62,203 bases of DNA from Desulfobulbaceae bacterium (GTDB lineage Bacteria; Desulfobacterota; Desulfobulbia; Desulfobulbales; Desulfobulbaceae), in contig JAABTP010000008.1 in the NCBI GenBank assembly GCA_011389815.1, positions 1 to 62,203 on the forward strand, written 5' to 3'. This document shows positions 59,679 through 61,957 of this stretch, piece after piece. Below the pieces are notes generated by a model that did not search any database, was not told the origin of the DNA, and worked only from the letters and a program-made list of their open reading frames with translations. Position 1 is the first letter of the stretch. Each line of letters opens with the position of its first letter. Made by a program: the position numbers and the translations under genes.

Positions 59679-61163
59679 TCAAGCAAAAGAGGGAGAATTC
59701 AACTTTTGCAACAAAGCCTCCGCCTTATCACGCTGTCCGATCTCCATATACACAGCGGCAAGATCATGATAGGGATCTAAAAAGTTCTCAGGTGCGGTAT
59801 CAATAGCCTTTTGGAGACAACGAATACCCTTTTCTGTCTGCCCCATTTTATGAAGGGATAAACCAAGGCCCTTATTCGCATAAGAATTGTCAGGTTCTTT
59901 GGCAAGAATCCTTTCGTTTGCCTCTTTGGCCTCTTCGTAATTACTCATAAAAAAATGGGTAAATCCCAGCAAGGACAGAGCATCAATACGCTCGGAATCT
60001 TCTTTGACAAGATGCTCAAGAATGAGAGCAGCCTCCTGAAAGGAATTTTCCTGAGCAAATCTTTGTGCGGTTGTAAACAGGGCATCTCTGTCCTGATAAT
60101 CAGCTATTTTTTCCTGCAACTTCAGCCTTGCGGTACGGTAAACACAATACGGGTTGGCAGACTTCATGGTCTTATTCATCGTTAACCGGGTATTAGGACA
60201 ACCTCCCAGACATACATCGCCGTAGGTACAGGTCTTGCACTCTCCTCCAAGATCTGTCTTTTTCATATTGCGTGACCACTTGAATGCATCAGAACCATTC
60301 CATATATCGACAATACTTTTGTCCCGAATATTTCCTTCGATAAAGCTACGATCTCTGATGGAAGTACAACCCAATACATCGCCATTATGCAGAATACCAA
60401 AACCACGGGTACCTGCATTACATCCTGCCCATTCTCCGGCGGAAGCTGGTCCAAGACTGTGCATGCGAATAAGTTTTTCTTTTTCAGTATAATACCCTAA
60501 ACAGTCTGCCGGGTAGATAGTGATCTTTTTCTCTTTGGCCACTTCAAGGCAGAAATCCAGAATACCATCAACCTCATCAGGATCAATAAGCTCATCCTGA
60601 TGGTTCACCATATTCCCCATGGGAATACAAATCTGTATTTGCCAGGAATTTACCCCATGCGCAACAAGAGCATTTTTTATCTCTGGAAGTTCTTTAATAT
60701 TTTTCTTATTAACACTGGTAATGGCACCGGAATATTGACCATATCTTCTCATCAGATCAAATGATCGCATATTTCTGGCAAAAGACCCGGCTTTCCTGAT
60801 GGCATCATGGGTTTTCTCAACACCGTCCAGGCTGATGGCAACCGTGCCGATATCGCAGGCTCTCATTTCCTGCACAGTCGCATCATCAAGCAACCAGCCA
60901 TTGGTGATCATATTGGTAATAATGCCATTCTGTTGTAGGCGGCGGGCCAACTGAGGCCAGTCCTGACGGGTCAGAGGCTCCCCGCCGGACAGGGTGATCC
61001 ATTGCATACCCAATTTCCCCAGATCATCACACAGGGCAAAGGCCTCTTCTGTGCTCAATTCATCAGGCAGGGCCTGGGCGCAAGCCGAACCGCAATGCAT
61101 GCAGCGCATATTACAGGCCATAGTGGTTTCCCATACTGCTGTGACAGCTTGATAGTCAGACAT
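59679..61163 (-). CDS. Radical SAM/SPASM enzyme with TPR tail (putative peptide maturase)
   Basis: 494 aa. The cluster motif CNMRCMHC (C17, C21, C24) and TLSGGEPL identify a radical SAM core. A SPASM-type auxiliary cluster region follows (CKTCTYGDVCLGGCPNTRL, about residue 310). The last about 130 residues are three to four TPR repeats (LVKEDSERIDALSLLGFTHF; LAKEPDNSYANKGLGLSLHK; AIDTAPENFLDPYHDLAAVY). SPASM enzymes typically modify peptides or proteins; the TPR tail could hold a repetitive substrate. The gene upstream encodes a Cys- and Tyr-Asn-rich repeat protein. Substrate assignment is inference. Confidence 0.88.
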   Translation of the reverse strand: MSDYQAVTAVWETTMACNMRCMHCGSACAQALPDELSTEEAFALCDDLGKLGMQWITLSGGEPLTRQDWPQLARRLQQNGIITNMITNGWLLDDATVQEMRACDIGTVAISLDGVEKTHDAIRKAGSFARNMRSFDLMRRYGQYSGAITSVNKKNIKELPEIKNALVAHGVNSWQIQICIPMGNMVNHQDELIDPDEVDGILDFCLEVAKEKKITIYPADCLGYYTEKEKLIRMHSLGPASAGEWAGCNAGTRGFGILHNGDVLGCTSIRDRSFIEGNIRDKSIVDIWNGSDAFKWSRNMKKTDLGGECKTCTYGDVCLGGCPNTRLTMNKTMKSANPYCVYRTARLKLQEKIADYQDRDALFTTAQRFAQENSFQEAALILEHLVKEDSERIDALSLLGFTHFFMSNYEEAKEANERILAKEPDNSYANKGLGLSLHKMGQTEKGIRCLQKAIDTAPENFLDPYHDLAAVYMEIGQRDKAEALLQKLNSPSFA

Positions 61164-61179
61164 AATAACTTTCCCTGTT

Positions 61180-61215
61180 AAAAAATAAAAAGGTGCCGCC
61201 TGTCAGACAGCACCT
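61180..61215 (-). terminator. Terminator between repeat protein and radical SAM gene
   Basis: On the minus strand AGGTGC...GCACCT (six bp, possibly extended by TGTC/GACA in the loop) is followed by TTTTTATTTTTT. It stands 56 bp after the repeat-protein stop and 17 bp before the radical SAM ATG. A partial terminator here would give much more substrate mRNA than enzyme mRNA. Confidence 0.75.
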
Positions 61216-61270
61216 GTAATGACGCATCGTTATTTTTTCGATATTCTGCCGTTGTTGAACAGCAAGGAGA

Positions 61271-61957
61271 TTATCTTGAAGGGAAATTATACCGCATCAT
61301 CGGGGGAAAGTTGTATCTCATCATCGGCGGGACGTTGTACCGCATTGTTGGAACATTGTACTTCATTGTCACTGGCGGGTTACAACAACAGTCATCACCC
61401 TCGCAAACAGGCGGCTGTATACCGTATTTGGGCTGTGGCTGATTGCAGCAGTCGTCACCAGGAGGACATACGCCATAGTAGAGGCATGGATCAATAGGCG
61501 CAGAGTAAACAGGCTGCGGAATATTGACGTTATACAGCGGTGTCGGGGGATTTACATTATACTCCATTACTGGTACACCCGATGCGGCACCACGAACCGT
61601 TGCTGTTGGTCTTGCTGTAAAGCCTTCAAGTCGCAAGGCATCATCTGTATCAGCATCCTTGGCTTTCACCACTGTAAAGGTATAGACAACTTTCTTTTTC
61701 GGTTTTTCAACTTTCCAGGGAGCTGTCAGGACAAAAACAGCCTTACCGCTTCCTTCACCAATCCCACGAAAGCTGAATATCTGGATGATCGGGGCGACAG
61801 GCCGTGTTGAGGTAGGGTGAACAGATGTTCCCACGAGATTAACGTCACCTTCAAGGGAAGCCAGCTCCCAGCCATACCCGGTGGACCCCATCATGGATTC
61901 TAATGACACATCTACAGATTGACCAACTTCAAGTTTAACTTCTTCCTGGATCGCCAT
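61271..61957 (-). CDS. Chagasin-like domain protein with Cys- and YN-repeat tail (candidate modified substrate)
   Basis: 228 aa, no signal peptide. Residues 1-100 look like a chagasin/I42-type beta-sandwich (LEVGQSVDVSLES; GSTGYGWEL; GSGKAVFVLTAPWK). From residue 130 the sequence is repetitive: EYNV, LYNV, KYGI, KYNV, RYNV, RYNF, RYNF with Pro/Met spacers, the last four Tyr about 7-8 residues apart. Between them are two GDDCC blocks (C170-C171 and C190-C192) and further Cys at 158, 164 and 185. An AAGGAG site precedes the ATG. The following gene is a radical SAM/SPASM enzyme. I infer a ribosomally made, post-translationally modified product with the folded domain as recognition part; a plain cysteine-protease inhibitor is the alternative. 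Confidence 0.75.
   Translation of the reverse strand: MAIQEEVKLEVGQSVDVSLESMMGSTGYGWELASLEGDVNLVGTSVHPTSTRPVAPIIQIFSFRGIGEGSGKAVFVLTAPWKVEKPKKKVVYTFTVVKAKDADTDDALRLEGFTARPTATVRGAASGVPVMEYNVNPPTPLYNVNIPQPVYSAPIDPCLYYGVCPPGDDCCNQPQPKYGIQPPVCEGDDCCCNPPVTMKYNVPTMRYNVPPMMRYNFPPMMRYNFPSR

Follow-up and report, generated by a model that had tools for sequence, protein, structure and literature searches.

A chagasin-domain protein with a tyrosine-motif tail as putative substrate of an adjacent splicease-like radical SAM enzyme

The closest described counterpart of the gene pair considered here is the PlpXY system of Pleurocapsa, whose precursors carry several X-Y-G-x-P sites each. PlpX is assigned to IPR026482, a SPASM subclass, in one source (PMC11002830), and spliceotide products are described as protease inhibitors in two others, both citing Scott 2022 (PMC10373908, PMC11117315). 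In a further paper, 939 splicease systems are predicted, splice tags of the type GGPIRP[L/G]YGLPI, e.g. GGPIRPGYGLPI, can suffice with ten residues and need no leader, and most tag positions tried in FtsZ were rejected by the splicease (PMC10533398). In a 62,203-nucleotide stretch of a Desulfobulbaceae bacterium (contig JAABTP010000008.1 of assembly GCA_011389815.1; hereafter the window), a radical S-adenosylmethionine (SAM)/SPASM enzyme related to PlpX is encoded beside a protein that joins a chagasin-type domain to a tail of repeated tyrosine motifs and that may be its substrate. Both open reading frames (ORFs) lie on the minus strand, where a preliminary description made from the sequence alone had placed them:

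61271-61957, minus strand: tail-protein gene, 228 amino acids (aa)
61634..61957, minus strand: chagasin-type (I42) domain, residues 1-108 (Pfam, AlphaFold2, structural matches)
61274..61633, minus strand: tail of repeats (residues 109-228), predicted to be disordered and holding 8 Y[NGS]x(1-2)P sites (model confidence, motif counts, shuffles)
61274..61363, minus strand: C-terminal block KYNVP-TMRYNVP-PMMRYNFP-PMMRYNFP-SR, invariant across three genomes of the genus
59679-61163, minus strand: enzyme gene, 494 aa, radical SAM/SPASM-TPR enzyme assigned to the splicease clade (Pfam/NCBIfam matches, trees, model)
61092..61115, minus strand: CxxxCxxC radical-SAM cluster motif (C17, C21, C24; alignments A1 and A3)
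60225..60422, minus strand: SPASM domain (Pfam; invariant Cys columns)
59700..60089, minus strand: TPR region at the C-terminus (residues 359-488 approximately), a candidate dock for the substrate (Pfam TPR; helices in the model)

We regard the pair as a real, widely scattered substrate-enzyme system that probably works like a splicease, and we consider it fairly probable that excision of tyramine at the tail sites turns the protein into a protease inhibitor with many warheads on an inhibitor scaffold. Like PlpX, the enzyme would cut the tyramine part (C8H9NO) of Tyr from each X-Y-[N/G/A/M]-x-P motif of the 228-aa protein and rejoin the chain, leaving X as an alpha-keto-beta-amino amide, one per repeat, and these ketoamides would trap Ser or Cys proteases. 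The TPR tail would dock the substrate, which is taken to be cytoplasmic because no signal peptide is visible by eye in the 228-aa protein. Splicing chemistry, modification at YN, YA and YM, protease target and TPR docking are what we infer from the comparisons below.

The pair is conserved and does not stand together by chance. Among 57 genomes of the family and order, with at most 27 candidates scored per genome, seven encode the enzyme (E 1e-60 or better), and in all seven a tail protein adjoins it, which bears out the pairing proposed in the preliminary description. Both genes are present in five of the eight genomes of the genus and neither in the other three, one of which is 69% complete; one of these three (G001) encodes an I42 protein without repeat tail that appears lipoprotein-like by eye. 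When named genomes were scanned with the enzyme alignment, 80 loci were kept, and in 14 of the 74 examined for precursors (L096-L101 were excluded) an I42-like tail protein lies upstream of the enzyme. These 14 belong to Bacteroidota (L022-L025), Desulfobacterota (L026, L028, L031, L059), three Bacillota and three metagenome-assembled genomes (Candidatus Aegiribacteria, Candidatus Thiodiazotropha of the Pseudomonadota and one labelled Deltaproteobacteria); the match in L059, a contig of genome G013, is circular, the I42 search hidden Markov model having been built with the G013 protein, and a weak opposite-strand I42 match in L057 (E 0.0051) was excluded from the count. With the window, G002, G004, G006, G007 and G038, this amounts to 20 adjacent pairs in several phyla, 19 of which form alignment A4 (G007, near-identical to G004, was omitted). 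I42 proteins as such are common without the enzyme: they occur in 60 of 395 genomes of the phylum, the enzyme at E 1e-90 or better in one of the 395, with few candidates scored per genome among the results listed. A wide occurrence of the repeat protein without the enzyme had been named as evidence against the pair; at least three tail motifs were found in none of 31 bacterial I42 proteins not known to adjoin the enzyme (30 loci returned from the 395-genome scan and the one of G001). The window protein shares fold and main loop motif with chagasin and other ICPs (MEROPS I42, PF09394) and differs from these 31 in its repeat tail. A literature search found nothing on chagasin with radical SAM enzymes or on this system; the system may be listed in the 2022 survey that underlies the prediction of 939 splicease systems.

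The repetition of the tail, whose residues 114-228 have a predicted local distance difference test score (pLDDT) below 50 in the AlphaFold2 model, exceeds chance. In the 120-residue tail, eight Y[GNAMSQ]x(1-2)P sites compare with a shuffle mean of 1.04, six YN[VF] with 0.10 and four [KR]YN[VF]P with 0.0015, and 0 of 20,000 shuffles reached the observed number in any of the three cases. The YN-like repeats reported earlier are present, with six exact YN[VF] where seven YN-like ones had been given; the two GDDCC blocks were likewise found, and eight Cys were counted in residues 113-228. In 19 homologous proteins taken together, the motif takes in 160 of the 227 Tyr of the tails, compared with 3 of 52 in the first 112 residues, and the tail, as had been supposed, is the likely modified part. 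Its repeat number differs among relatives, again as described, with 13 such sites from residue 113 on in G038. Over the last 35 codons, pairwise comparison of three genomes of the genus gives 34, 34 and 35 identical codons, 1, 1 and 0 silent differences and no amino-acid change; the first 105 codons of the same genomes differ by 13 to 19 changes at the amino-acid level and by 22 to 25 silent ones.

The residue after Tyr varies with lineage. Over the 160 sites in 19 tails it is Gly in 76, Ala in 43, Asn in 22, Gln and Met in 7 each and Ser in 5, and Pro stands third after Tyr in 141. Lys or Arg precedes Tyr in 74 of the 160 sites and is itself preceded by a hydrophobic residue in 67 of these 74; Lys/Arg at P1 after a hydrophobic residue suits papain-like enzymes, the class of proteases inhibited by chagasins. 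The sites of the window are mostly YN[VF], with six YN against two YG, G-type relatives have almost only YG, the A-type tails hold 0, 2, 0 and 0 YG and the M-type none; the tails of Desulfoluna (L026, L028) and of L031 carry YA without YG, that of L048 only YM. In the genus of the window, the tails of G004 and G007 read LYGFPP, KYGVP, KYGFP and KYGMP, and KYGVP, KYGFP, LYGFPP and PLYGFPP tails in other lineages resemble the PlpX tags. To follow these types along the enzyme tree, substrate class and tail type were labelled by eye (30 of 76 tree rows remained unlabelled and uncounted; 11 of the 80 loci, L081, L085, L086, L092, L095 and L096-L101, were left out of the tree as partial or weak). 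Substrate class, I42-paired or short-peptide-paired, changes once over 46 labelled rows, the least in 1000 shuffles being 9, and tail type (Gly, Asn-containing, Ala, Met) needs three changes over 18 rows, the fewest that four states allow, the least in 1000 shuffles being 5; the shuffles ignore relatedness, and the Asn label means that YN sites are present, YG outnumbering YN in L022, L023 and L025. Pairing and tail type are hence passed on together with the enzyme; the result concerns inheritance and not the rate of change.

The neighbouring gene encodes, as the preliminary description had it, a radical SAM/SPASM-TPR enzyme, with Pfam matches to Radical_SAM (5.2e-20), SPASM (1.2e-10) and TPR repeats. 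Its C17, C21 and C24 are invariant in the 6-row alignment A1 and conserved to at least 90% in the 73-row A3, and C248, C266, C309, C312, C318, C322 and C340 (the last just outside the Pfam match) are invariant columns of the 73-row alignment, in line with the seven-Cys rule of SPASM domains; the CxxxCxxC motif and these seven columns place the protein among the radical SAM/SPASM enzymes. The model has a mean pLDDT of 94.3 and finds SuiB, SkfB and PqqE as best PDB matches, followed by BlsE and anSME; no structure named as splicease was among the six sequence matches up to 1e-15. In G002, a transposase-like ORF within the enzyme gene (L017:7488-10881) removes the TPR region and leaves radical SAM and SPASM parts intact and the substrate gene whole, a natural separation of the TPR region. 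In a Rikenellaceae homologue (L071:5995-7461), the CxxxCxxC cysteines are replaced (NNVRGGHY), and this radical SAM protein seems to be inactive or to have taken on another role.

Sequence comparison places the window enzyme close to the spliceases. Its top NCBIfam match is TIGR04103 (nif11-class maturase 3, 1.1e-70), on which IPR026482 presumably rests, and the second is TIGR03913 (GDL motif), far under the cut-off of that family; for each of the 73 aligned relatives, both matches reach 1e-40 or better. In a 32-enzyme tree with a TIGR04103 enzyme of Nostoc, GDL-type enzymes of Azospirillum and Aureibacter and the outgroups NirJ, MftC, TIGR04053 and TIGR04347, the window enzyme, the Nostoc enzyme and the GDL-type enzymes fall into one 28-row group against the four outgroup enzymes (support 100/99; 100/100 when MftC is replaced by an AhbD-like enzyme of the own genome, which scores 436 bits, under its family cut-off of 500). 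Within this group the Nostoc and GDL-type enzymes branch together on their own, so that the window enzyme is related to the PlpX type but not derived from it. A signature W[QR]x[QN]x(2-4)PMG occurs in 68 of 76 tree rows, the Nostoc enzyme included, and in 0 of 5 outgroup enzymes. GYY was rejected as a mark of the branch, being found in 55 of 76 rows but in two GDL-type enzymes too. That the modification is of an undescribed kind, as the preliminary description suggested, is not supported: the enzyme groups with PlpX-type spliceases, and tails of relatives hold XYG motifs like published splice tags. Compared with PlpXY, the window enzyme has a TPR tail, an I42 domain takes the place of the Nif11/NHLP leader as carrier, and the residue after Tyr is mostly Asn in the window and Ala or Met in some relatives. 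The Nostoc locus encodes a Nif11 precursor ending ALYGLPPELF, then the enzyme and then a 71-aa protein, taken for the PlpY counterpart by its position. Outside its genus, the nearest relatives of the window enzyme are in Bacteroidota (64% identity to L022, against 53% to G004 from its own genus), a pattern that suggests horizontal transfer. A search for TIGR04103 at E 1e-90 in 297 genomes of the phylum gave no match with the controls also silent, so that absence is not implied; TIGR04133, sought as an outgroup in 58 genomes of the order, gave no match there or in the control genomes.

An enzyme conserved with other neighbours had been named as a further argument against the pair. Other neighbours do occur in the wider clade, yet these are short peptides that carry the motif as well. 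In Bacillota, many of the grouped enzymes adjoin peptides of about 45-110 aa that are rich in PLYGIxP or have single YGV sites. The clostridial PLYGI-repeat peptides, whose close enzymes mostly have TPR-length tails, share repeated PLYGIxP cores with the present system and differ in their length (about 45-110 aa), the mostly Gly residue after Tyr and the lack of an inhibitor domain. The GDL/DUF1843 system (TIGR03913 maturase; Azospirillum, Aureibacter) lies in the same 28-row group, and its small precursors bear Y-G, Y-A or Y-M close to the N-terminus; these short DUF1843 precursors lack I42, and the maturase lacks the PMG signature. Of three large neighbour ORFs tested, those of L041 and L093 are C39-peptidase ABC exporters and that of L040 is a dockerin-bearing cellulase; peptidase-containing ATP-binding cassette transporters (PCATs) are listed for spliceotides in PMC10885120. 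An S-layer-homology protein (L051:1793-2575) and a dockerin-domain protein (L064:807-1382) with the Tyr motif also stand beside clade enzymes, and the motif seems to be placed on different anchoring domains.

The N-terminus of the 228-aa protein has, in the predicted structure, the chagasin I42 fold claimed for it earlier. The Pfam match scores 40.9 bits against a cut-off of 27.2 (PF09394, Inhibitor_I42, E 2.6e-10), residues 1-97 form a beta-sandwich in the AlphaFold2 model, and the top ten PDB rows (Z 9.0-11.9) are ICP/chagasin entries or an inhibitor-based scaffold (EhICP2, amoebiasin, chagasin, PbICP-C, the scaffold and Leishmania ICP), the next row being unrelated at Z 8.6. The loop motifs STGYGW and APWK, which we take to act in inhibition, are present. 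Eighteen of the 19 tail-protein members match I42 at E 0.01 or better (L050 has no match, L059 is under the Pfam cut-off), and 17 of 19 retain the TGYxW-type loop. In two Bacteroidota loci, the inhibitor gene is moreover preceded by a small gene for a cystatin-like protein:

L025:4833-5144: cystatin-like gene, QVVAGTNYKF
L022:3394-3681: cystatin-like gene, QLVAGMNYRF

The two are 35% identical to each other, with a profile match to cystatin 6i1m at E 4.8e-4. The retained loop and this neighbour point to cysteine proteases as a possible target. A C1 protease was sought as target in the own genome; one partial match of 27.1 bits (positions 79-204 of 220) was not used. These observations bear on the best surviving alternative, which we regard as unlikely, namely that the tail is spliced without yielding an inhibitor, the I42 domain being a folded leader only and the beta-residues serving structure, metal binding (Cys blocks) or bioactivity after cleavage. 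Related enzymes adjoin such varied carriers (Nif11 leader, GG-type leader peptides, S-layer-homology, dockerin) that the carrier is perhaps incidental, the tails hold anywhere from 0 to 15 Cys, and the loop is degenerate in 2 of the 19 members; its retention in the other 17 goes beyond the need of a mere leader, however, and the cystatin-like neighbour in two loci also argues against this explanation.

Quite improbable is, in our view, that the enzyme acts on tail Tyr by another chemistry, forming a three-residue cyclophane or another crosslink from Tyr to Asn or a neighbour with the backbone uncut. Cyclophane maturases accept aromatic-x-polar motifs, the closest solved folds (SuiB, SkfB, PqqE) are those of general peptide-modifying SPASM enzymes, and the N, A and M types, in which a residue other than Gly follows Tyr, break the published XYG rule. 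By sequence, however, the nearest families are the PlpX and GDL types, DynA scoring 75 bits on the window enzyme (the trees were built without known cyclophane maturases), and Gly, Ala or Met can follow Tyr, same-genus relatives having pure YG tails. An ordinary repetitive-tail protein standing unmodified beside an unrelated maturase is highly improbable: low-complexity Pro/Tyr tails can come from repeat slippage and I42 proteins are common in the phylum without the enzyme, but the 20 adjacent pairs in several phyla, the absence of the motif from the 31 I42 loci away from the enzyme, the co-inheritance of enzyme clade and tail type and the constancy of the C-terminal block in three genomes whose I42 domains diverged all argue against it.

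Several findings also weigh against splicing of the tail into a protease inhibitor. Strict TIGR04103 membership fails, the window enzyme scoring 238 bits against a cut-off of 725; both trees with the 28-row group give long-branch warnings and lack TIGR04133, the fourth-best family; and the PMG signature is lacking in three GDL-type enzymes, five more distant rows and L071. A PlpY-like ORF was not found, the Nostoc 71-aa query recovering only itself in a single-sequence search of the window and the 20 pair loci, and the same query gave no match in the own genome in a search without positive control that is uninformative alone. Published sites are XYG, whereas the tails of L026, L028, L031 and L048 have no YG at all and the window sites are mostly YN. 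P1 is Lys or Arg in just 8 of 48 A-type sites and in fewer than half of all sites, so that a basic P1 after a hydrophobic P2 fits part of the sites and hardly the A-type. The cystatin-like gene occurs in two loci only, with single-sequence searches giving E 0.044 and no match and Pfam none even at E 10. As to a route to a foreign protease, no exporter was seen by reading beside window-type genes. With these points in mind, we put forward only tentatively, as somewhat doubtful, the more specific picture of a multi-warhead trap with up to 16 ketoamide sites, made by a splicease branch that acts without PlpY and has switched from Gly to Asn, Ala or Met as the residue following Tyr, with P1' differing by lineage, on an I42 scaffold that is joined by a cystatin-like protein in two Bacteroidota loci.

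Further features concern the intergenic region and the surroundings of the inhibitor genes:

61191..61215, minus strand: hairpin and T-run with 11-bp stem between substrate and enzyme genes (terminator-like scan)
L026:3352-4806, L027:1067-2554, L031:3641-5092: B12-binding radical SAM genes, Pfam-confirmed
L028:3295-4731: B12-binding radical SAM gene, by position and similar start only

A hairpin and T-run stand where a terminator had been proposed between the genes; the suggested higher expression of substrate than of enzyme, by a leaky terminator, is plausible only. The terminator-like scan gave 2 sites compared with 2.5 in shuffles, and folding of the whole gap in the window has a z-score of -3.15. 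The z-score is -2 or lower in 10 of 13 loci (not in L019, L030 and L059), the remaining 7 of the 20 pairs, outside the folding set, being L020, L022, L027, L034, L048, L050 and G002, whose gap is that of G006. At the DNA level, the stretch from the 3' end of the substrate gene across the gap to the enzyme start (window:61057-61417) is 92-98% identical to the window between species, and 99-100% between G006 and G002; for the inhibitor domain the identity between species is lower (79-90%), a contrast that includes silent sites, and window and G002 are 98% alike also in parts of the enzyme gene. Recombination or constraint on the DNA or RNA may account for the high identity. The B12-binding radical SAM genes precede the inhibitor gene in each of the four A-type (YAAP) loci; a second modification, perhaps a methylation, may occur there. 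In G006, a 53-aa ORF (L016:7386-7547) located upstream of the inhibitor gene repeats the C-terminal two-cysteine arm (SGPGKGACKMAG) of a nearby 106-aa protein, which we take to be DsrC.

If the proposed splicing is true, bacteria would unite in one protein a folded protease inhibitor and many post-translational covalent warheads, and the X-Y-G rule of spliceases would broaden to X-Y-N/A/M. An enzyme class for protein labelling and inhibitor making would gain new sequence contexts, the link between enzyme clade and substrate motif would provide a testable pairing rule, and backbone splicing would acquire a natural role in whole proteins.

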